A stretch of 64,000 nt of DNA from Kitasatospora sp. NBC_01250 (GTDB taxonomy: Bacteria; Actinomycetota; Actinomycetes; Streptomycetales; Streptomycetaceae), in the NCBI RefSeq assembly GCF_036226465.1, contig NZ_CP108476.1:3596001-3660000 (forward strand), read 5' to 3'. A program made the translations under genes and the position numbers. Each line of letters starts with the position of its first letter. Position 1 is the stretch's first letter. This document shows positions 36,062 to 57,158 of the stretch, one piece after another. The notes under the pieces were generated by a model. That model was not told where the DNA came from. It saw only the letters and a list, made by a program, of their open reading frames with translations, and made no database searches.

Positions 36062-36505
36062 ATGGACAGCCGGCCGAGCGTGGTGGAGTTGGAACTCGAG
36101 CTCAACCTGGTGCTCTCCCCCGAGCGCAGCGTCCCCGTCCCGGCCCGGCTCTCGTACGGCAGCCACGACCCGTACGCGGTGCACATCACCTTCCACCTGG
36201 ACACCGGCACCCCGGTGACCTGGGTGTTCTCCCGGGAGCTGCTGGTGGAGGGCACCTTCCGCCCGTGCGGCCAGGGCGACGTGCGGATCTGGCCGACCCG
36301 GCCCCACCCGGCGGCCGGGGTCACCCACAGCGGGCGGCAGAGCGTGCTCTGCCTCGCGCTCACCTCACCGGGTGGTGACGCCCTGCTGGAGGCGCCGCTG
36401 CCGGCCGTGGCCGCCTGGCTGGAGCGGGCGCACCGGCTGGTGCCGCCCGGCGGTGAGCTGAACGTGCTGGACCTGGACAGCTCGCTCGCCGAGCTGCTGG
36501 CCTGA
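36062..36505 (+). CDS. SsgA-like sporulation/cell-division regulator (SALP), possibly SsgG
   Basis: A 147-residue protein with the SALP core: VPARLSYGSHDPYAVHITFHLDTGTPVTWVF, RELLVEGTFRPCGQGDVRIWP and LTSPGGDALLEAPLPAVAAWLERAHRLVPPG. These proteins occur only in morphologically complex actinomycetes and control peptidoglycan remodelling and septum placement during sporulation. ATG 36062 has GAGAGGA 8-14 bases upstream. Its place a few genes from hppD resembles that of ssgG in S. coelicolor, from memory, but the sequence alone does not settle which SALP it is. Confidence 0.88.
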   Translation: MDSRPSVVELELELNLVLSPERSVPVPARLSYGSHDPYAVHITFHLDTGTPVTWVFSRELLVEGTFRPCGQGDVRIWPTRPHPAAGVTHSGRQSVLCLALTSPGGDALLEAPLPAVAAWLERAHRLVPPGGELNVLDLDSSLAELLA

Positions 36506-47209: not shown

Positions 47210-47641
47210 ATGTGCAGCGCCGCAGTCGAGCAGTCCGTCCAGGCCGCCCTGATCCTGTCCAGCCACTGCTCCACCCAGCTGCAGATGACCCTGCGCTACC
47301 GGGCCGCCGACCCGCTGGCGGTCCGGCTGGTGTTCCCCGGCGAGTACTCGCTGGACGAGGTGGCGGCGCCATCCGCGGCGGACGAGGTGATCTGGGTCTT
47401 CGCCCGGCAGCTGCTGGCCACCGGGCTCGACCTGCCCGCCGGGCTGGGCGACGTGCACATCAGGCCCTCGCGCGGTCCGCACACGATGGTCGAGCTGCGG
47501 GCACCCGAGGGGATCGCCCTGCTCCGCTTCGAGGCGGGGGACCTGCGGCGCTTCCTGGCGGCCAGCTACCGCTGCGTGCCCGAGCACCAGGAGGGCCGCC
47601 ACCTGGACGCCGACCGCGCGCTGGCCGAGCTGCTCGGCTGA
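47210..47641 (+). CDS. Second SsgA-like sporulation/cell-division regulator
   Basis: A 143-residue SALP. Core elements are LQMTLRYRAADPLAVRLVFPGE, VIWVFARQLLATGLDLPAGLGDVHI and IALLRFEAGDLRRFLAASYRCVPEHQEGRHLDADRALAELLG. It lacks the usual PYAV (PLAV here). ATG 47210 follows GAGGAG. It is separated from the first SALP gene by about 11 kb. Which SALP subclass it belongs to cannot be decided by eye. Confidence 0.85.
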   Translation: MCSAAVEQSVQAALILSSHCSTQLQMTLRYRAADPLAVRLVFPGEYSLDEVAAPSAADEVIWVFARQLLATGLDLPAGLGDVHIRPSRGPHTMVELRAPEGIALLRFEAGDLRRFLAASYRCVPEHQEGRHLDADRALAELLG

Positions 47642-47656: not shown

Positions 47657-50212
47657 TCAGCCCGAGAGCCTGCGCATCAGCCGCATGCCCTGGCTGGGCG
47701 TCAGGTGCGGCAGGTAGGCCTTGCCGATCGCCCGGGTGATGCTGGGCAGCGCCGCCGGGTCGGGGTAGAGCATGTACATCGGCCGGTACTCGGGCTGGAA
47801 CTTCGCCTTGAAGGCGAGCAGCGAGCGGAACCCGTAGACCGGTTCCAGGCTCTTGCCCATCCAGTCGAGCATCCGCTGCAGCGCGGTCTGCGGCACGCCG
47901 CGGTCCGCCCGGGCCAGCGGCGCCCCGGACAGGCTCAGGAACTCGGCGCCCTCCTCCTTGAAGCCGAGCGCCGCGGAGGCGATCAGGAACTCCATCACGC
48001 CGCGGAAGCCGTCGGCGCGCCGGCGCATGAAGTCCAGCGTCCAGCCGATCGGCTCGCCGTCCCGGTAGACCGGCATCCAGCTGGTCAGGCCGTGCACCGT
48101 ACGGTCCTGGTCGACGGCGACCAGGATCCGCACCGCCGGATCGGCCAGCTCGTCCAGGCCGCCCAGGGTGAACCCCATCTCGGGCAGGCCCTTGTCGGCC
48201 ACCCACTCCTCCGAGATCGAGCGCACCTGGTCGCGCACGGCCATCGGCGCGTGCTGCCAGCTCCACCACTCGGCGGTGATGCCCTCCTTGCGGGCCTTGT
48301 TCAGCGAGGTCCTGATGTCCTGCCACTTCTTCCCGGTGAAGGCCAGGTCCGCCAGCGGCACCACGGTGTCCTCGGCGACCTGCAGCGAGCGCCAGCCGAG
48401 CCGCTCGCCCTCGTCCAGCGTCTGCGGGGTGACGCTGTAGAAGCACGGGGTCCAGCCGCGCGCGTCGCAGTACGCCGCGAACCCGGCCACCGCCCGCCGC
48501 CGCGCCGCCGGCTCGCCGAACGGATCGCCGGTGGTCAGCGCCACGGTGGAGATCACCCGGTACGGCACGGCGGCCTCGCGCCCCTCGTCGAACCAGTAGT
48601 GGTTGCCGTCCCAGGTGGCGATGAAGGAGAGCGTCGAGCCGCCGTGCCGGGTCAGCAGCTCGCGCGCCCGGGCCGCGTCCGCGGCGTCCGCCTGCACGCT
48701 GGGACGGCGGAAGGCCAGCAGCAGCGAGAGCAGGGCGACCACCCAGAACAGCAGCCCGGTATAGGCCGACAGGGCCTGCGAGGTGCCGCCGACGGCCACC
48801 GGGGAGGTGAGGATCAGGTCGTTGTAGGCGGGCGGCAGGAACTCCGAGGGCAGGCCCCGCAGCAGGACGGGCAGGGTGGCGTCCGGGTTGTACTGGTCGC
48901 GCACCAGCCAGCCGATCCCCAGGTAGGCGAGGCACGCGGCCAGCAGGGTGCCGCCGGTCACCAGGCCCAGCCGCTTGAGGTCCCGGGCGGGCAGCCGCAG
49001 CGAGAAGCGCTTGCGGGTGATCAGCAGCAGGAGCAGCACCAGCACCGGCATCAGCAGTGCCTCGCCGACCAGTTGCCAGACCTCGCCCTGGCCGCCGAGG
49101 TCGCCGGCCTGGCCGAGCAGCACCTCCAGCAGCCAGCTGAGCAGCGCGATCCACAGCAGTTGGACGACCGCGATGCACCACCAGGCCAGCCGCAGGCCGC
49201 GGCGCAGCCCCTCGGCCAGCACCAGCAGCAGGACCGGGATCAGCGCCGCCATCAGCCGCCCCGGCGAGTCGTAGAAGTGCAGCGCCGACTTCAGGTGCGC
49301 GCACTCGTCGGCCGACACCGAGCAGGCGTAGGCGATGTCCTCGGCGCTGGGCGGGCGGGAGAAGTAGAGGTCGCTGAAGGTGTTGAACGGGCCGTAGGCG
49401 TCCCGGTAGAGCGAGGCGATCAGCGGCCCGAGCGCGGACCCGGCCACGCAGAGCGCGACGAGCACCCGGGTCTCGGCGTGCGAGGGCCGGCGCGGCCGCC
49501 AGGACACCCGCTCGCGGACCAGCAGCAGCCCGGCGGCCAGCCCGAAGGCCGCCGCGACCAGGCGCTGGACGGCCTGCAGGTGGCCGACGTAGAGCATCAG
49601 CACCAGCGGCACCAGCACCACCACCAGCTGCAGCCGGCGCCGCCACAGCGCGGTGAGCCGGAAGCTGACCGCACCGGCGAGCGCGAAGAGCCCCGGCGCC
49701 GGGCCGACCGCGATCTGCTCGTTCAGCCCCTGGGTCCAGGTCTCGCCGACCGCGATGCCCAGCCGCACCAGGCCGGTGCCCAGCAGGACGCCGACCACCT
49801 GGCCGGCGATCACCACCGCGCCGGCCCGCCGCCGGCCCAGCCGCCGCTCGGCGATCGGCCCGATCACCAGCAGCGCGGCGGTGGTCAGCAGGTAGGCGGC
49901 GATGCCCGAGCACCAGCACAGCGAGCTGAGCGGGGTCCACCAGCGCCCGGCCTCCAGTGTCGGGATGCCCACCCCGACCCGGGAGAGCAGGTGCGGCGAG
50001 GGGCCGCTGCCCAGGCTGCCGGTGGCGGCGCCGACCACCCAGAGCAGCACGGTCAGCGCCACCGTCAGCGGCGCCTCGCGCAGCGCCCGGGCCACCGGCA
50101 GCCAGGCCCGCAGCCCACGCCGCCAGGGCGACTCGGGCCGCGGGGTGACGGGCTGCGCGGCACCGGCGTCGGTGGTCGCGGGCCCGCTCCCGAGCGGTTC
50201 CGCCGGGCTCAT
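47657..50212 (-). CDS. Large membrane protein with C-terminal DUF2156/MprF-like aminoacyl-lipid synthase domain
   Basis: An 851-residue protein. The N-terminal 550 residues have roughly 12 membrane helices; helices near residues 45-200 (LEAGRWWTPLSSLCWCSGIAA) recall a rhomboid-like fold. The C-terminal 300 residues are the soluble DUF2156 domain: STLSFIATWDGNHYWF, YRVISTVALTTGDPFG, LGWRSLQVAEDTVVPLADLAFTG followed by KKWQDIRTSLNKARKEG, PIGWTLDFMRRRADGFRGVM, and KFQPEYRPMYMLYPDP. MprF-type domains transfer Lys or Ala from tRNA to phosphatidylglycerol and flippase helices move the product. The ATG overlaps the esterase stop (ATGA), so the genes are coupled. Confidence 0.85.
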   Translation of the reverse strand: MSPAEPLGSGPATTDAGAAQPVTPRPESPWRRGLRAWLPVARALREAPLTVALTVLLWVVGAATGSLGSGPSPHLLSRVGVGIPTLEAGRWWTPLSSLCWCSGIAAYLLTTAALLVIGPIAERRLGRRRAGAVVIAGQVVGVLLGTGLVRLGIAVGETWTQGLNEQIAVGPAPGLFALAGAVSFRLTALWRRRLQLVVVLVPLVLMLYVGHLQAVQRLVAAAFGLAAGLLLVRERVSWRPRRPSHAETRVLVALCVAGSALGPLIASLYRDAYGPFNTFSDLYFSRPPSAEDIAYACSVSADECAHLKSALHFYDSPGRLMAALIPVLLLVLAEGLRRGLRLAWWCIAVVQLLWIALLSWLLEVLLGQAGDLGGQGEVWQLVGEALLMPVLVLLLLLITRKRFSLRLPARDLKRLGLVTGGTLLAACLAYLGIGWLVRDQYNPDATLPVLLRGLPSEFLPPAYNDLILTSPVAVGGTSQALSAYTGLLFWVVALLSLLLAFRRPSVQADAADAARARELLTRHGGSTLSFIATWDGNHYWFDEGREAAVPYRVISTVALTTGDPFGEPAARRRAVAGFAAYCDARGWTPCFYSVTPQTLDEGERLGWRSLQVAEDTVVPLADLAFTGKKWQDIRTSLNKARKEGITAEWWSWQHAPMAVRDQVRSISEEWVADKGLPEMGFTLGGLDELADPAVRILVAVDQDRTVHGLTSWMPVYRDGEPIGWTLDFMRRRADGFRGVMEFLIASAALGFKEEGAEFLSLSGAPLARADRGVPQTALQRMLDWMGKSLEPVYGFRSLLAFKAKFQPEYRPMYMLYPDPAALPSITRAIGKAYLPHLTPSQGMRLMRRLSG

Positions 50213-51531
50213 CCGATCAGCCCGAGCTGCTGGGACAACCAGGTCAGCTGGCCGCTCAGCCCGGCCCGGAAGGTGTTCCAGTCGTGGCCCCCGGGCACCT
50301 CGGTGAAGGTCGCCCTCATGCCCGCCGCGACGGCGGCCTGGTAGACCTTGCGCTGCTGCGGGCCGTACTCGCCGTCGCTCTTGCCGACCACGAACGCGGC
50401 CGCGGTGTCGGGGAACTTCTGGCGGGCCATCACGTGCAGCGGGTCCACCGCGTCGAAGGCCGCCTCGTTGCCGCCGAAGGCCGCCTGCACGGTCTTGTCG
50501 TGGCTGCCCAGGGTGGGCTCGTCCTGGCCGGAGATGTCCAGGAAGGAGCCGTAGACCTGCGGCGCGTTGACGGCCATCTGGAGCGAGCAGGTGCCGCCGA
50601 GCGAGAGCCCGCCGATCGCGAAGGCGCCGCGGCCGGTGCCGGTCTGCAGGTGGGCGTGCACCCAGTCGGGCACGTCCTGGGCGAGGTAGGTCTGCGCCTT
50701 GGCGATCTTGGAATCCATGCAGAGCGTGTTGGCCCAGTCGGAGCCGGTCGGGTCGACCACCACGACGATCGGCGCCAGGCCCTGGTGGGCGGCGGCGAAG
50801 GAGTCCATGGTGCCGGCCAGGCCACCGGAGTTGACCCAGTCGGCCGGTCCCCCGGGCTGGCCGGCCATCAGCACCAGCACCGGCAGCAGCGGGCGCGGCG
50901 CGGTGGCCTGGTAGGCCGGCGGCAGGTAGATGTAGGCGTCGCGGGGATCGAAGCCGGACTTGTGCCCGGGTATCGCCGTGGTGGTGATGGTGCCCTTGGC
51001 CGGCAGCCCGGCCGGGCTGTGCCAGACCTCGGCCAGCGTGCGCCCGGCGGGCGCGCTCAGCGTGCTGGTGGCCCTGCCCGCCGAGAAGGTCGGGGTGTGC
51101 TGGATCCAGGGGGCCAGCAGCACCCGCAGCGTCGGGTACTGGTCGTACTGCCGGTTGATCTCCGAGCCGGACATCAGCAGCACCAGCAGCGCCGCGCCCA
51201 GCACCGCGAACCGGCCGCGCCAGCGCAGCGGGGGCAGCCGGAAGAGCGCCAGCAGCAGGCCGAGGATCCCGATCCCGACCCAGAACACCACCTCGCGGGT
51301 GAGCCCGTCGGGCCACGGCTGCCACCAGTCGTTCACCACGGCCCGCACCAGCACGGTGAGCGCCGCGGTCAGCAGCACGGCGCACGGGAACCGCCGGCTC
51401 CACCAGTGGGTGCTGCTGGAGACGGCGAGGCCGACCAGCGCGAGCCAGCCGAGCGCCAGCACCAGGATCGGGATCACCCCGCTGGTGATCGGCCAGTCCA
51501 GCGGACCGTCCCACGCCAGTGCTGCCGTCAC
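50209..51531 (-). CDS. Membrane-anchored alpha/beta-hydrolase esterase (Ag85/EstA-like)
   Basis: A 440-residue protein. Four membrane helices occupy residues 15-125. The extracytoplasmic domain has the nucleophile Ser310 in GGLSLGGTC, a preceding LVLMAGQPGGPADW oxyanion region, and His near 418 in VPGGHDW. This is the esterase/mycolyltransferase-like fold (PF00756) typical of streptomycete lipid or wall-modifying esterases. It overlaps the sortase gene upstream by four bases and the DUF2156 gene downstream by four, so all three are translationally coupled. The substrate is unknown, perhaps aminoacyl-phospholipid or wall ester. Confidence 0.85.
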   Translation of the reverse strand: MTAALAWDGPLDWPITSGVIPILVLALGWLALVGLAVSSSTHWWSRRFPCAVLLTAALTVLVRAVVNDWWQPWPDGLTREVVFWVGIGILGLLLALFRLPPLRWRGRFAVLGAALLVLLMSGSEINRQYDQYPTLRVLLAPWIQHTPTFSAGRATSTLSAPAGRTLAEVWHSPAGLPAKGTITTTAIPGHKSGFDPRDAYIYLPPAYQATAPRPLLPVLVLMAGQPGGPADWVNSGGLAGTMDSFAAAHQGLAPIVVVVDPTGSDWANTLCMDSKIAKAQTYLAQDVPDWVHAHLQTGTGRGAFAIGGLSLGGTCSLQMAVNAPQVYGSFLDISGQDEPTLGSHDKTVQAAFGGNEAAFDAVDPLHVMARQKFPDTAAAFVVGKSDGEYGPQQRKVYQAAVAAGMRATFTEVPGGHDWNTFRAGLSGQLTWLSQQLGLIG

Positions 51532-52166
51532 TGTGCCCCCCGATGACCTGTCAGATGTGCGAATACCACCACGTTGCCGTGGTAGCCCTGTCCTTTGGTG
51601 AACCCGCCGCCGCAGGTGATCAACCGCAGTTGCGCGTCCGGGGCCTGGCCGTAGACCCGGTGGTCCGGGAAGTCCGAACGGTCGTAGACGTCGACGGCGT
51701 CGACCACGAACCAGGCGGTGGTGCCGTCCTGCCGGGCCACGTCGACCTGGTCACCGCGGTGCAGCGCACCCAGACCGTAGAAGACGGCGGGGCCGGCGGC
51801 GGTGTCCACGTGGCCGACCAGCAGCGCGGTACCGCGCTGGCCGGGCGTCACCCCGTCACGGTACCAGCCCGCCAGATTGCGCCGATTGTCCGGCGGGGTG
51901 GCCAGGTGGCCCTCGCCGTCCAGCCCGACCCCGGTCACCGGGGCGTCCACGCCGACCGCCGGGATCCTGACCCGCATCGGCTCCGAGGCCCGCATCGGGG
52001 TGCCGCTGAGCGCGGCCGGACGGATCGCGCCGTCCTCCCCCGCCTCGGCGGCGGACGGCGCGGGCGGCAGCGAACCGCGGCTGCCGTCCTGCACCAGCCA
52101 GGCCCCCACCACCACCGTCGCCCCCAGCGCCACCGCCGCCGACCAGGGACTGCGCTGCCTGCCCAC
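51528..52166 (-). CDS. Class F-like sortase
   Basis: A 212-residue transpeptidase. A membrane anchor is at about 8-25. The sortase fold begins near residue 62 (MRVRIPAVGVDAPVTGVGL). The catalytic His119 is in LVGHVDTA and Cys185 in RLITCGGGF. The usual catalytic Arg near YxxN is not seen: the segment reads GYHGNVVVFAHL, with His196 in the place where many sortases have Arg. It is coupled to the esterase gene by a four-base overlap. Candidate substrate: the secreted protein at 56520. Confidence 0.88.
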   Translation of the reverse strand: MGRQRSPWSAAVALGATVVVGAWLVQDGSRGSLPPAPSAAEAGEDGAIRPAALSGTPMRASEPMRVRIPAVGVDAPVTGVGLDGEGHLATPPDNRRNLAGWYRDGVTPGQRGTALLVGHVDTAAGPAVFYGLGALHRGDQVDVARQDGTTAWFVVDAVDVYDRSDFPDHRVYGQAPDAQLRLITCGGGFTKGQGYHGNVVVFAHLTGHRGAQ

Positions 52167-52193
52167 GCCGGCTCCCGTCCGCAGATCCTCGGC

Positions 52194-54794
52194 TCACCCC
52201 TGCTCAGCCAAACCGGAGGCCTGCCCCGCCGCATCGGCTGTGCCGCCGGACGGGTGAGCCGCGCCCCGGCGCAGCGAGCCGCGCAGCCTGGGCCGGACCA
52301 GGAACCCCTCGGCCAGTCCGTTGGCCACCGCGATGGTGGGCAGCTCGGAGGACTTCTCGTAGAGCAGGAAGCGCGGCTCCCAGCTGGGCTGGTACTTGGC
52401 GTTGGCCCGGTACAGCGACTCCAGTTGCCACCACCGCGACAGGAAGCGCAGCACGGCCCGGCACAGCCGCAGCACCGGTCCGGCCCCCAGCTTGCCGCCC
52501 TGCTCGAAGACGTAGCGGAACATCGCGAAGTTCAGCGAGACCCGGGTGAGCGGCAGCGCACCGGCCGCCCCGGCCAGCAGCAGCTCGGTGACCAGGAACT
52601 CCACCAGACCGTTCTCCGACTCCCGGTCGCGGCGCATCAGGTCGAGCGAGAGGCCGTGCGCGCCCCAGGGCACGAAGCTCAGCAGCGCGCAGGTGCGGTC
52701 GTTCTCGTCCCGGCACTCGGCGAGCACGCAGTCGCCGTCGGCGGGGTCGCCGAGCCGGCCCAGCGCCATCGAGAAGCCGCGCTCGGTGCGGCCGTGGCGC
52801 CAGGCGTCGGCCAGGTGCACCAGCGCGGTCAGTTCGTCCGTGGGGATGTCCCGGTGGCGGCGGATCACCGCGCGGTAGCCGGCCTTGCGGACCCGGTTGT
52901 GGGCCTGGCGCAGGGTGCGCATGCTGCGGCCCTCCAGGCTGAAGGCGGTCACCTCGACGATCGCCTCGTCGCCGAACTCCAGTGCCTTGAGGCCGGTCCG
53001 CCGGTAGACCGTGCCGGCCTGCTCGCCCGCGCCGGTGACGGCCGGCACCCAGGCGTTGGCCCGGGCCAGCTCCCGCCAGCACGCGATGGCCTGCGGCCAC
53101 GCCTCCGGGTCGCCGATCGGGTCGCCGGAGGCCAGCGCGACCCCGTTGACCACCCGGTAGAGCACGGCGGCCTTGCCGGAGGGCGACCAGCAGACCGACT
53201 TGTCGCGGCGCAGCGCGAAGTAGCCGAGCGAGTCGCGCGCCCCGTGCCGCTCCAGCAGGGCGCGCAGCCGCTGCTCGTCCTGCGGCTGCAGGTGCACCCG
53301 CCCGTGCGGGGAGCGGAAGAAGACCCGCAGCACCAGCAGGAAGAGCGCGGCGCCGAGCACGTTGATGGTCAGGTCGGCCCAGCGGTCGACGCTCACCTGC
53401 GCGGTCACGTCGCCGAAGCCGGAGACGGTGAACAGCCGCACCACCGCGTAGCCGAAGCAGTCGCCCCAGTCCGCCTGCGGGGTGGTGCCGGCGTGCACCA
53501 GCACGGCGCCGAGCACGGTGACGAGCAGCCCGCCGATCAGCAGCACGGACAGGCCGAGCACCAGGTTGCCGCGGGCGCCCCGGGCGTGGAAGGCGCGCCG
53601 GCCGGCCAGCAGCACGGCGAGCAGCAGTGCGGTGAGTGCGAAGGAGACCCAGTTGAAGGGGTGCGCCCGGTCCTCGGGCAGCACCGCCAGGGCCACCGCG
53701 AAGGGCACCGTGTAGATCGCCGCCACCGCGGTGGCCACGATCCAGGCCGCCCGCTTGCGCCGGCGCAGCATCACCGCCAGCAGGGCGGCGAAGAGCGCGG
53801 CCGTGAACCCGGCGGTGACCAGCACCGGGGTGAAGAACTCGCCGCTGTTGGCCCGCTCCACCCGCTCCCGGAACGGGGCGATCAGCCCGGCCAGCAGGTT
53901 GAGCGCGGCGGCGATCCGCGCGTACCACTCGGCGCTCACGGCGCAGCGCCGGCGCCACGGCGGCAGTGGGCGGGCCGGCGCGGGGGCGGGGACGGGTACG
54001 GGGACGGCCGCGGGGGCCTCGGCCGCGGCCGGCGCAGCCGCCGTGCCGTCGGGTACCGCGTCCGGGGCGCCGGCCAGCAGGTTGTACGCGCCCACCTTGA
54101 ACGCCTCCATCCGCCGGTGCACCCGGGCCTCGCGCCGCTCGGCGCGGGCCATCCGCTTGGGGCGGCTGCGGTAGCGCCAGCGGGCCCACGGGCTGCCGGG
54201 TCTGGCCAGCCGGATCGCCCCGACCACGGCGAGCACCGGCAGCATGACGCCGATCAGCCCGGTCCACAGCTTGCCCTTGAGCAGGCTGACCACCACCAGG
54301 AGCAGCAGCACCGCGGCCCCGGCCAGCTGCCCGATCGAGGGCTTGCCGCTGATCCCGCCCAGCGGCAGCTCGCCGACCAGCACCAGCGCGATCAGCGCGA
54401 TCGCGAGGATCACCGCGTCCACCGACTTGCGGCCCTGCTCGCTCCAGTAGACGTCCTCCAGGTGCAGCACCAGCGCGAACTCGTCCAGCACCAGGCCGCA
54501 GCCCGCGCCGAAGGCGATCGCCAGTCCGTCGCGCGCCAGGCCGTGGGTGCCGTGGTAGGCGAAGCTCGCGACTCCGGCCACCACCATCAGCGCCTGCCCG
54601 AAGACCACGTGGTGGATGTGCAGGCCGCCGGGGGTCACGTTGCCCGGCCACCAGGAGGTGCCGCGCCGGATCATCCGGGTGCTGAAGCGGATGAACAGGA
54701 AGGCCGTGATCAGGCCGATCAGCAGCAGGAAGAGCGGCTCCCGGCCCGGCTCGACGATCCGGGAGTGGTACGCGTCCCGCAGCGACTCCCACAT
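52194..54794 (-). CDS. Second large DUF2156/LysX-MprF-like membrane protein
   Basis: An 866-residue protein. The N-terminal membrane region contains GLHIHHVVFGQALMVVAG (about 57-75). A soluble linker rich in Ala/Pro is at about 240-280, further helices reach to about 480 (SVLLIGGLLVTVLGAVLVH), and the DUF2156 domain follows: RDSLGYFALRRDKSVCWSP, YRVVNGVALASGDPIG, LGDPADGDCVLAE, LSLDLMRRDRESENGLVEFL, and RANAKYQPSWEPRFLLYE. It resembles lysyl-phosphatidylglycerol synthases but no lysyl-tRNA synthetase-like domain is present. ATG 54794 starts it; upstream frame is promoter. It is divergent from the deacetylase-like gene at 55084. Confidence 0.85.
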   Translation of the reverse strand: MWESLRDAYHSRIVEPGREPLFLLLIGLITAFLFIRFSTRMIRRGTSWWPGNVTPGGLHIHHVVFGQALMVVAGVASFAYHGTHGLARDGLAIAFGAGCGLVLDEFALVLHLEDVYWSEQGRKSVDAVILAIALIALVLVGELPLGGISGKPSIGQLAGAAVLLLLVVVSLLKGKLWTGLIGVMLPVLAVVGAIRLARPGSPWARWRYRSRPKRMARAERREARVHRRMEAFKVGAYNLLAGAPDAVPDGTAAAPAAAEAPAAVPVPVPAPAPARPLPPWRRRCAVSAEWYARIAAALNLLAGLIAPFRERVERANSGEFFTPVLVTAGFTAALFAALLAVMLRRRKRAAWIVATAVAAIYTVPFAVALAVLPEDRAHPFNWVSFALTALLLAVLLAGRRAFHARGARGNLVLGLSVLLIGGLLVTVLGAVLVHAGTTPQADWGDCFGYAVVRLFTVSGFGDVTAQVSVDRWADLTINVLGAALFLLVLRVFFRSPHGRVHLQPQDEQRLRALLERHGARDSLGYFALRRDKSVCWSPSGKAAVLYRVVNGVALASGDPIGDPEAWPQAIACWRELARANAWVPAVTGAGEQAGTVYRRTGLKALEFGDEAIVEVTAFSLEGRSMRTLRQAHNRVRKAGYRAVIRRHRDIPTDELTALVHLADAWRHGRTERGFSMALGRLGDPADGDCVLAECRDENDRTCALLSFVPWGAHGLSLDLMRRDRESENGLVEFLVTELLLAGAAGALPLTRVSLNFAMFRYVFEQGGKLGAGPVLRLCRAVLRFLSRWWQLESLYRANAKYQPSWEPRFLLYEKSSELPTIAVANGLAEGFLVRPRLRGSLRRGAAHPSGGTADAAGQASGLAEQG

Positions 54795-55083
54795 GACGCC
54801 TCGGCTCCTCCCGCCCCGCACCGCACAGCCCGCGTCCAATCTGATGATCTTTGCGGCCGGGACGCGACTCGACACGCCGTGCGGCTGCGCTTATCGGGCG
54901 TTTGGGCATCGCCATCCCGGTGCGCCGCGATAGAGCGTGCGATGCTGTGGGACAAATCGCCCATAACGGTCTTTCAGCGGACTAATCGCCACCAGTCGGG
55001 CACCGTCTCGTCGTTGAGCTCCGCCGCCCGCCCGCTCGCGGTTCCGCGCCCCGCCCCGAGCCCCGACCCGAACCGGAGTGATG

Positions 55084-56331
55084 ATGGACGACCTGTCCCG
55101 CCGTACCCTGCTGACCGCCGGCGCGGCCACCGCCGCGACGGTGGCCGCCGGCTGTGCCCGCCCCGGCACCACCGCCAAGAGCACCGAGGCCGCCCCCGCC
55201 CCGAGCTCCGCCTCCCCGAGCATGCCGAACACCCCCGCCAAGCCGCCGACCACCCTGATCGGCGACGGCTCGACCTCCGACACCGGCCCGCAGCCCGCCC
55301 AGCCGCAACCGGTCCCGCTCGAACTGGGCGAGCGCCCACCGCAGTTCGTCGTCTTCTCGTGGGACGGCGCCGGCGAGCTGGACGACCAGCTGTTCTCCCG
55401 GTTCCGCCGCCTGGCCAAGGACCACGACGCCTCGATGACCTTCTTCCTGAGCGGGATCTACACCCTGCCGGAGTCCAAGAAGGAGCTCTACCACCCGCCG
55501 CAGCACCGCATCGGCGCCTCCGACATCGGCTACCTGAGCGACCAGCACATCCACGACACGCTGACCCAGATCAGCGCCGCCTGGCTGGACGGGCACGAGA
55601 TCGGCACCCACTTCAACGGGCACTTCTGCGGCGCCACCGGCGGCGGCAAGTGGTCGCCCGAGGACTGGGACAGCGAGATCGAGCAGGCGATGTCCTTCGT
55701 CATGAACTGGAAGACCAACACCGGTTTCACCGACCTGCCCGCGCTGCCCTTCGACTACCGCAAGGAGCTGATCGGCGGGCGCGCCCCGTGCCTGGAGGGC
55801 CAGCGCGGCCTGCTCCCGACGGCCGCCGCGCGCGGCTGGAAGTACGACACCAGCGGGCCCGGCGGGCTCCAGATCTGGCCGCAGAAGGTGCAGGGCGGCG
55901 CGCTGTGGGACATGCCGCTGCAGTCCATCCCGTTCCCCGGGCACACCTTCCAGGTGCTCTCGATGGACTACAACATCATGTTCAACCAGTCCGGCGACAA
56001 CACCAAGGGCGATCCGACGATGCACACGGCCTGGCAGAAGCAGGCCACGGAGTCCTACCTGTCCGGCTTCGACCGTGCCTACACCACCAACCGCGCGCCC
56101 ATGTACATCGGCAACCACTTCGAGGGCTGGAACGGCGGCATCTACATGAACGCCGTCGAGGAGGTGCTCAAGACCATCGCGGACAAGCCCGAGGTGCGGC
56201 TGGTCTCCTTCCGCCAGCTGGTGCAGTGGCTGGAGGTGCAGGACCCGGCGGTGCTGCGCAAGCTGCAGTCGCTGGCGGTCGGCGAGGCCCCGGCGGGCGG
56301 CTGGTCGAGCTTCCTGGGTGCCGCGCACTGA
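55084..56331 (+). CDS. Tat-exported lipoprotein resembling polysaccharide deacetylases
   Basis: A 415-residue protein. The N-terminus LSRRTLLTAG has a twin-arginine motif and TVAAGC a lipobox (Cys at about residue 24). After a Pro/Ser linker (to about residue 75) the fold opens with QFVVFSWDGAGELDDQLFSRF, the place where deacetylases carry the TFDDG Asp, then DHDASMTFFLSGIYTL, and later EIGTHFNGHFCG (the H-x3/4-H-like metal motif, about residues 177-188) and NHFEGWNGGIYM near 345. The metal motif is H-x3-H (HFNGH), plausible for zinc. Enzyme activity is not certain because of differences from NodB. Start ATG 55084 is preferred over GTG 55078/ATG 55081 by GGAG spacing. Confidence 0.72.
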   Translation: MDDLSRRTLLTAGAATAATVAAGCARPGTTAKSTEAAPAPSSASPSMPNTPAKPPTTLIGDGSTSDTGPQPAQPQPVPLELGERPPQFVVFSWDGAGELDDQLFSRFRRLAKDHDASMTFFLSGIYTLPESKKELYHPPQHRIGASDIGYLSDQHIHDTLTQISAAWLDGHEIGTHFNGHFCGATGGGKWSPEDWDSEIEQAMSFVMNWKTNTGFTDLPALPFDYRKELIGGRAPCLEGQRGLLPTAAARGWKYDTSGPGGLQIWPQKVQGGALWDMPLQSIPFPGHTFQVLSMDYNIMFNQSGDNTKGDPTMHTAWQKQATESYLSGFDRAYTTNRAPMYIGNHFEGWNGGIYMNAVEEVLKTIADKPEVRLVSFRQLVQWLEVQDPAVLRKLQSLAVGEAPAGGWSSFLGAAH

Positions 56332-56519: not shown

Positions 56520-57158
56520 ATGCGCGCTCGTCACTTCGCCGCCACCGGGCTGCTGGCGCTGGCCGTCGGCCTCGGCTGCGCCGGCACCGCCGCCGCCAAC
56601 CCGGTCATCATCGAGCCGGACCCGGTCACCCCCGGCAGCCAGTTCGCGGTCTTCGACGGGGGCAACTGCGACGGCGCCGGCGGCCAGGCCGTCTTCCGCT
56701 CCCGCGAGCAGGGCGGCTCCGACGGCCAGGACATCCCCGCGGTCAAGCTCGGCTCGCTGCGCGGGCTGACGGGTGCCATGGCCACCGTCCCCGAGCACGC
56801 CAGGCCCGGCGTCTACGACGTGACGATCAAGTGCACCACGGTGACCAAGAGCCAGGTGACCACCACCTTCACCGTGCACGACAGCAGTGCCAAGCCCGGG
56901 CAGTCGGGGTCCGGGCCGGGCGCGGGGTCAGCGGCGCCCGGCTCCTCGGCGCAGTCGGACCGCCCGGGCCACGAGGACCAGAGCGGCAGCTCGGGCCACT
57001 ACGGGCAGCCCGGCGAGACCGGACCCAAGGGCACCTCGCACGCGGGGCTGGGCGGCAGCACCGGCCCGAACACCCCCGAGACGCTGGCCGGGGTGACCCT
57101 GCTGGCCACCGCCGGCGCGGCCACCTTCCAGCAGTACCGGCGCCGCCGGTCCTCCTGA
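56520..57158 (+). CDS. Secreted protein with a sortase-signal-like C-terminus
   Basis: A 212-residue protein from ATG 56520 behind GGAGAG. It has a signal peptide (about 1-27, ending TAAAN) and a small beta-rich domain (residues 28-120, PVIIEPDPVTPGSQFAVFDGG; two Cys in GGNCDG and IKCTTV). A Gly/Ser/Pro-rich stalk follows. The C-terminal 35 residues run GLGGSTGPNTPE, a hydrophobic helix (TLAGVTLLATAGAATF) and the basic tail YRRRRSS. This matches the design of a cell-wall sorting signal but has no LPXTG or LAETG. The only sortase in the window is 4 kb upstream on the opposite strand. Confidence 0.72.
   Translation: MRARHFAATGLLALAVGLGCAGTAAANPVIIEPDPVTPGSQFAVFDGGNCDGAGGQAVFRSREQGGSDGQDIPAVKLGSLRGLTGAMATVPEHARPGVYDVTIKCTTVTKSQVTTTFTVHDSSAKPGQSGSGPGAGSAAPGSSAQSDRPGHEDQSGSSGHYGQPGETGPKGTSHAGLGGSTGPNTPETLAGVTLLATAGAATFQQYRRRRSS

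Follow-up and report, generated by a model that had tools for sequence, protein, structure and literature searches.

Aminoacyl-lipid synthase homologues, an esterase, and a class F sortase at a composite locus of Kitasatospora sp. NBC_01250

The subject of this report is a row of four genes within a 64,000-nucleotide stretch, referred to here as the window, of the chromosome of Kitasatospora sp. NBC_01250 (contig NZ_CP108476.1, positions 3,596,001 to 3,660,000 of the forward strand). The genes lie on the minus strand in the order DUF2156-A, sortase, esterase, and DUF2156-B. DUF2156-A (P0001, 866 residues, 52194..54794) extends from an ATG at 54794 to a stop at 52194 and is separated by 27 bp from the sortase gene (P0002, 212 residues, 51528..52166, GTG at 52166). 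The latter shares the bases GTGA with the esterase gene (P0003, 440 residues, 50209..51531, GTG at 51531), which in turn overlaps DUF2156-B (P0004, 851 residues, 47657..50212, ATG at 50212) through ATGA. The ends, overlaps, and gap bear out the layout given in the first-pass annotation, which suggested that the four genes make up one unit of a kind not known to it as described. As detailed below, the core of the locus is of a known kind, that of PesT/AlaDAGS and LysX-like proteins, in a new arrangement. New within the searches made are the fusion and the recurring company of a membrane domain, here called HIHH, and one group of class F sortases tied to aminoacyl-lipid loci.

Both DUF2156 proteins match PF09924, the current Pfam name of which is LPG_synthase_C, with scores of 308.5 bits for P0001 and 281.3 bits for P0004 (cut-off 27.5). 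These matches, together with the tree grouping described below, uphold the earlier assignment of both as homologues of aminoacyl-lipid synthases. The GNAT-type synthase domains are formed by residues 511-812 of DUF2156-A (52359..53264) and residues 517-816 of DUF2156-B (47765..48664). The cut-off of 600 bits for the bifunctional MprF model NF033480 is not reached, the two proteins scoring 177.6 and 192.4 bits. P0004 has a rhomboid-like N-terminal membrane part (PF01694, 27.3 bits, cut-off 22.6); the Pfam scan revealed no catalytic tRNA synthetase domain in it, and PF16995 fell below its cut-off at 16.8 bits. In the esterase a hydrophobic N-terminal part is followed by the esterase domain (PF00756, 73.3 bits, cut-off 22), and Ser310, His416, Cys271, and Cys315 are invariant among the 11 sequences of alignment A1. 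The 9.0 Mb host chromosome (G000) contains seven sortase matches and five PF09924 matches in all.

The conservation of the locus was examined in 121 genomes of the Streptomycetaceae, 28 of them Kitasatospora. Genes in the compared loci (L numbers; genomes carry G numbers) were called with our own codon-usage open reading frame (ORF) caller, and start sites are thus approximate. An esterase ortholog, defined by an E value below 1e-120, is present in 27 of the 121. In every one of these DUF2156-B adjoins the esterase, with a stand-alone HIHH gene intervening in one (L023). The sortase borders this block in 20 of the 27 loci and is a decayed piece in L003. DUF2156-A is found in the locus in ten, two of which have it on the opposite flank (sortase, esterase, DUF2156-B, DUF2156-A in L024 and L025). 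All four genes were called in only nine of the 27, two in the other order; the complete set is the rarer arrangement.

Within Kitasatospora the flanks are largely fixed whereas the contents of the locus vary. The esterase and DUF2156-B are both found in 20 of the 28 genomes. None of the eight that lack an esterase ortholog carries an intact DUF2156-B ortholog, and all eight keep the sortase. Remnants of DUF2156-B are seen in L047 and L048, and a shorter relative lies elsewhere in G057 and G092. DUF2156-A is long in 14 genomes (at least 837 residues, with HIHH in each), was not called in ten, is shortened or split in three (L043, L045, L047), and persists as a remnant in L006. It accompanies the pair as a LysX-type synthase gene in eight of the 20 genomes. 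The locus has the sortase in 27 of the 28 (26 by the ORF caller and G080 by the sortase search), only part of it being left in G119 (L003). In G092 the pair is on a different contig from DUF2156-A and the sortase (L009, L052). The four-base overlap between the esterase and DUF2156-B genes recurs in 19 of the 20 Kitasatospora genomes in which both were called, and that between the sortase and esterase genes in 12 of 18; given this recurrence, the overlaps are not due to chance. On the basis of these patterns of presence and loss, the esterase and DUF2156-B form one module, lost together in Kitasatospora, and DUF2156-A is a separate module. The sortase, the most stable gene of the locus, depends on neither lipid module and is inherited largely independently. 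Of the single unit first proposed there remains the esterase/DUF2156-B pair, together in 27 of 27 genomes; DUF2156-A varies separately, and the sortase stays without either.

A similar pair is encountered beyond the family. The esterase profile, run over 246 genomes of the class, yielded 19 loci (L101-L119; L120 served the HIHH analysis), in eight of which, outside the family, a synthase adjoins the esterase or lies no more than two genes away (L101, L102, L105, L108, L112-L115). Four of the eight esterase loci of g20, a Mycobacterium-like genus, have a related esterase immediately after LysX (L105, L108, L112, L113); L107, L110, L111, and L119 do not have this succession. A search of 201 genomes of the mycobacterial family with the L101 synthase gave L121-L140, of which L121-L139 are 19 loci of this DUF2156-B-like synthase type. 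The esterase adjoins the synthase in 16 of them, lying upstream in 15 and divergent in one (L136). Included are L123-L125, from small, lower-GC genomes taken for Corynebacterium. In L127-L129 an additional gene shares four bases with the start of the esterase gene; it encodes a PAP2 phosphatase (PF01569) in L127 and, by likeness, in L128 and L129, and its product is a possible source of diacylglycerol (DAG) for the synthase. In an unrooted tree of 60 synthase domains P0001 falls among LysX proteins and P0004 groups with Corynebacterium-like ones, with support of 100/100 each; P0004 and L121-L125, the latter from small genomes of the mycobacterial family, lie together on one side of a 100/100 branch. 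The positions of L085 and L095, two long-branch rows of the LysX part, are unsure. Judged by these sequence relationships, the esterase and DUF2156-B very probably constitute a PesT-AlaDAGS system, which would form alanyl-DAG and then alanyl-phosphatidylglycerol (Ala-PG).

Smith and colleagues are said to have reported in 2015 that pesT is an esterase gene located upstream and needed for Ala-PG in Corynebacterium glutamicum. PMC10580965 cites PesT/AlaDAGS for C. glutamicum and AlaDAGS alongside the formation of lysyl-DAG by LysX; PMC12637418 describes LysX as an aminoacyl-DAG synthase making lysyl-DAG and names AlaDAGS only. The Kitasatospora pair resembles PesT-AlaDAGS in having an MprF-family synthase without lysyl-tRNA synthetase (LysRS), an esterase gene directly upstream, and a synthase that the tree sets on the side of the Corynebacterium-like proteins. 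It differs in its placement behind a class F sortase, at times with the LysX-type gene as well. Through its match to PesT/AlaDAGS, the esterase/synthase part has a described counterpart, of which the first-pass annotation did not know. PMC12637418 also reports that disrupting the possibly co-operonic Rv1639c/MMAR_2446 had no significant effect on lysyl-DAG. From its gene position, Rv1639c would be this esterase, and the lack of a significant effect is compatible with an esterase step that follows the synthase. Another counterpart is provided by Streptomyces coelicolor, in which sco3396 (esterase) and sco3397 (mprF) depend entirely on sigmaE according to PMC6767563; PMC3123327 gives an SCO3397 mutant greater sensitivity to vancomycin and bacitracin. 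There, too, esterase and MprF-type genes carry adjacent numbers, and by gene kind the divergent esterase/LysX-type neighbors of L056 in the present genome are comparable, but the window genes showed no upstream sigmaE-type site.

DUF2156-A contains the LysX-type transmembrane domain PF16995 (45.8 bits, cut-off 26.8) and groups with LysX, the lysyl-DAG synthase of mycobacteria and corynebacteria. It attains 607.7 bits with NF002821, below the cut-off of 742. Neither LysRS nor tRNA-synt_2 was matched in the Pfam and NCBIfam scans of P0001, whereas the L108 LysX does have this match. Lacking the C-terminal LysRS and carrying HIHH at its N-terminus, DUF2156-A is by domain content LysX-type and not LysX proper. 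By eye, a LysRS-like sequence precedes the MprF-type synthase in L085:2-2638, the reverse of the LysX order; an esterase gene and an HIHH gene lie a few genes further along.

The HIHH membrane domain comprises residues 1-215 of P0001 (54150..54794). It matches 85 of the 246 class genomes at an E value of 1e-6 and in the loci examined is mostly a stand-alone protein of ∼250-380 residues. Invariant positions in alignments A2 and A3, among them HxHH, DE, DVYW, and GRxS, number 32 in 16 diverse members and 33 in 58 members. With the domain as query (P0006), no Pfam match and no PDB sequence match was obtained at an E value of 1, and the single NCBIfam match, to a 93-residue model, scored 13.5 bits versus a cut-off of 109. 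Scattered weak matches among the 58 members were to TspO_MBR in six (best E value 0.0065) and TsoY in three (best E value 0.00044). HIHH is therefore without an acceptable match among Pfam, NCBIfam, and PDB sequences and, as far as these searches reach, is an undescribed domain. Rv2180c is presumably a homologue. A search of viral contigs for HIHH returned none. The AlphaFold2 model is a helix bundle with a predicted local distance difference test (pLDDT) score of 82.9.

A PF09924 synthase lies within a few genes of HIHH in four of 20 picked loci (L084, L085, L095, L098), with LysX directly upstream in L084 and an esterase also present in L085. Among 80 named HIHH loci, the domain is fused to a synthase in 12 (eight in Kitasatospora or Actinacidiphila records), and a separate synthase gene lies within five genes in five (Catellatospora L165 and L173, Hamadaea L171, Prescottella L177, Rhodococcus L204), the Hamadaea and Rhodococcus loci also having an esterase nearby. 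In L142 the synthase was called and the HIHH domain was not. Additional cases of HIHH beside a synthase are L023, L053, and L140. The company of HIHH is not limited to aminoacyl-lipid synthases, since in L087:5132-7312 (putative Gordonia) the domain is joined to DUF2254 in one protein. HIHH proteins about as long as this one, of ∼720-760 residues, also occur in Gordonia, Williamsia, and Rhodococcus loci of the named set. Because fusion to and proximity with synthases recur, HIHH is likely linked to the aminoacyl-lipid pathway, and its invariant charged and histidine residues suggest a lipid-acting membrane enzyme.

The sortase exceeds the class F cut-off of NF033748 (210 bits, cut-off 166), as did all seven sortases tested, and contains the catalytic His119 and Cys185 along with Asn198. 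An asparagine in place of arginine is described for actinobacterial class F sortases in PMC6998099. For comparison, 20 class F sortases of other genera of the Streptomycetaceae (L061-L080) were taken by rank, two higher hits, G024 (contig edge) and G037, being skipped. A neighbor with a [TA]GxG tail, a hydrophobic stretch, and a basic end was found for 18 of the 20, directly adjoining in 17 and 1.6 kb away in L074. The tail pattern was loosened after the neighbors had been inspected, the first version giving 12 of 20 and the loosened one, also used for the control, 18. The two sortases without such a neighbor are those beside DUF2156-A (L068, L077). With the three other class F loci of this genome (L058-L060), a tail neighbor is present in 21 of 21 class F loci outside aminoacyl-lipid loci, versus two hits in 1.07 Mb of control loci. 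In contrast, among 27 Kitasatospora loci a credible tail protein lies within 5.5 kb of the sortase only in the window and in L001 (4.3 kb away); in L024 and L025 it is ∼7 kb away. Pattern hits in L002, L011, and L016 were discarded as substrates, being the ends of a ∼475-residue protein at the place of an MFS-like neighbor.

The putative substrate in the window (56520..57158, plus strand) has a signal-like N-terminus, the tail AGLGG, a hydrophobic stretch, and RRRR. Relatives were found in five of 32 genomes searched, its own included and one weak; such relatives are encoded close to the sortase in G027 and within the locus in both G055 and G078. It had no NCBIfam match at an E value of 0.05 (NF058571 cut-off 29), its tail being likened by eye only. 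The notion of the tail as a new sorting signal was dropped, as NF058571, the GVDTG sorting domain, covers it in part: among seven tail proteins, those of L062 and L064 score above the cut-off and those of L061, L058, and L024 below it, with no match for the window or L059. The sortases of aminoacyl-lipid loci (26 from Kitasatospora and two from each of two other genera) mostly lack such a neighbor. They form one group in a quick tree, with a Shimodaira-Hasegawa-like approximate likelihood ratio test (SH-aLRT) value of 82. By these comparisons the sortase would be an old neighbor with protein substrates of its own, and shared envelope regulation with the lipid enzymes is plausible. In Actinoplanes missouriensis, according to PMC13251363, a quadruple deletion of class F genes produced no phenotype, and the neighbors of two class F genes have a signal peptide, a membrane stretch, and a basic tail; there, as in PMC6998099, the in vivo role of class F sortases is described as unknown. 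Open-licence papers yielded none joining a sortase, aminoacyl-phosphatidylglycerol, and Streptomyces.

From the domains, gene order, joint loss, and tree grouping we infer a set of reactions, together with the amino acid, the lipid, and the side of the membrane in each. The locus would be a composite lipid-aminoacylation island consisting of an AlaDAGS/PesT-type module, a LysX-type module with HIHH, and the sortase as a neighbor, a reading to which we assign a probability of roughly 65%. DUF2156-B would alanylate DAG at the inner face of the membrane with alanyl-tRNA. The esterase, its catalytic part taken to be outside, would use the aminoacyl-DAG as donor and transfer the alanine to phosphatidylglycerol by transesterification, the role inferred for C. 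glutamicum PesT. DUF2156-A, having no LysRS of its own, would make lysyl- or another aminoacyl-DAG with aminoacyl-tRNA drawn from the general pool. HIHH would be a membrane partner of the synthases and probably an enzyme that acts on the lipid acceptor or on the product.

Alternatively, the esterase might be a hydrolase that takes the amino acid off the lipid, the pair thereby setting the level of aminoacyl-lipid. The Ala-PG hydrolases of Pseudomonas and Enterococcus would be the model, the invariant serine and histidine of the PF00756 family fit, and a strict pairing with the synthase suits making and removing equally; PesT, however, is tied to the making of Ala-PG, for which it is reportedly needed, and not to its removal, and we regard hydrolysis as rather unlikely. 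HIHH might also have no catalytic role and, as a scaffold or in the manner of a flippase, position or move the aminoacylated lipid, although this is the less favored view. Its model is polytopic and helical and weakly resembles transporters in structure (Z up to 6.4), and the domain occurs fused to or beside synthases, which agrees with such a role; yet the invariant histidine, aspartate, glutamate, and arginine residues look catalytic or metal-binding, and the tool rates Z values of this size as common.

As one obligate unit the four genes were rejected on gene order and loss patterns, and it is improbable that all four form a unit in which the sortase displays or anchors a partner of the lipid enzymes. 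The recurrent sortase/esterase overlap would suit such a unit, as would the grouping of lipid-locus sortases from three genera and three gene orders, at an SH-aLRT value of only 82. Against it stand the persistence of the sortase in eight Kitasatospora genomes without the pair and 14 without a long DUF2156-A, the separate contigs of G092, and five of the 27 pair loci, all of other genera, that have no adjoining sortase. Most improbable is a direct chemical tie, in which the amino group of an outer-leaflet aminoacyl-lipid (alanyl- or lysyl-DAG or -phosphatidylglycerol) would serve as the nucleophile resolving the protein thioester of the sortase. Were this so, surface proteins would be tethered covalently to membrane lipid rather than peptidoglycan, and the lipid genes would make the anchor, which would explain the place of this sortase group at these loci.

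Several observations weigh against the composite island as read here. Outside the family, 11 of the 19 esterase loci have no nearby synthase in the fetched stretch (L116 being a whole short contig), and three of the 19 loci of DUF2156-B type have no esterase (L121, L122 with a short synthase, and L134). The synthase sample contains no C. glutamicum by name, "Corynebacterium-like" denoting the small, lower-GC members of the mycobacterial family. A synthase is absent from the vicinity of HIHH in 16 of the 20 picked loci, some on short stretches, and from within five genes in 62 of the 80 named ones. Blocks 51-60 and 111-120 of the HIHH model, which include conserved residues, have pLDDT values near 60, and no convincing fold match was found (best Foldseek E value 1.2, best VIA-align Z 6.4). 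Finally, neither a strict pattern nor a second scan revealed a sigmaE-type site upstream of the four window genes. The strict pattern, which in L010 and L024 gave a match 38-40 bases ahead of the sortase, also missed the hoped-for positives among the genes of L055, L056, and L098 and thus has low power. The second scan gave sites upstream of the sortase in six of 28 loci, where 0.3 would be expected, of the esterase in eight of 27 (at positions inside the sortase gene), DUF2156-A in one of 19, and DUF2156-B in none of 28, the positions being scattered except in the near-identical L024 and L025. A sigma-70 promoter scan found none, and a terminator scan one, which equals the chance expectation.

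Other genes surround the locus. The plus-strand gene at 55078-56331 encodes a protein with a twin-arginine-translocation-like, lipoprotein-like N-terminus that by eye resembles NodB deacetylases; no Pfam family above cut-off and no NCBIfam match was obtained. Its cluster was called in 27 loci, including nearly all Kitasatospora island loci. Small proteins of one shared cluster, SsgA-like (sporulation) by eye, are encoded on the plus strand at 47210-47641 and 36062-36505, the former bordering the island in most Kitasatospora genomes examined. An esterase paralog with 33% identity (L035, G000:C1:3672453-3673679) lies ∼25 kb from the island in a gene row without a synthase; rows of similar make-up occur in L027-L029, L032, and L033.

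These comparisons extend the little-studied PesT/AlaDAGS pair to several actinobacterial families, as a module that is conserved and lost as a whole, and the role of the esterase becomes directly testable. HIHH, an undescribed membrane domain, is given a likely pathway by its fusion to and company with aminoacyl-lipid synthases, and a group of class F sortases is now placed at aminoacyl-lipid loci.

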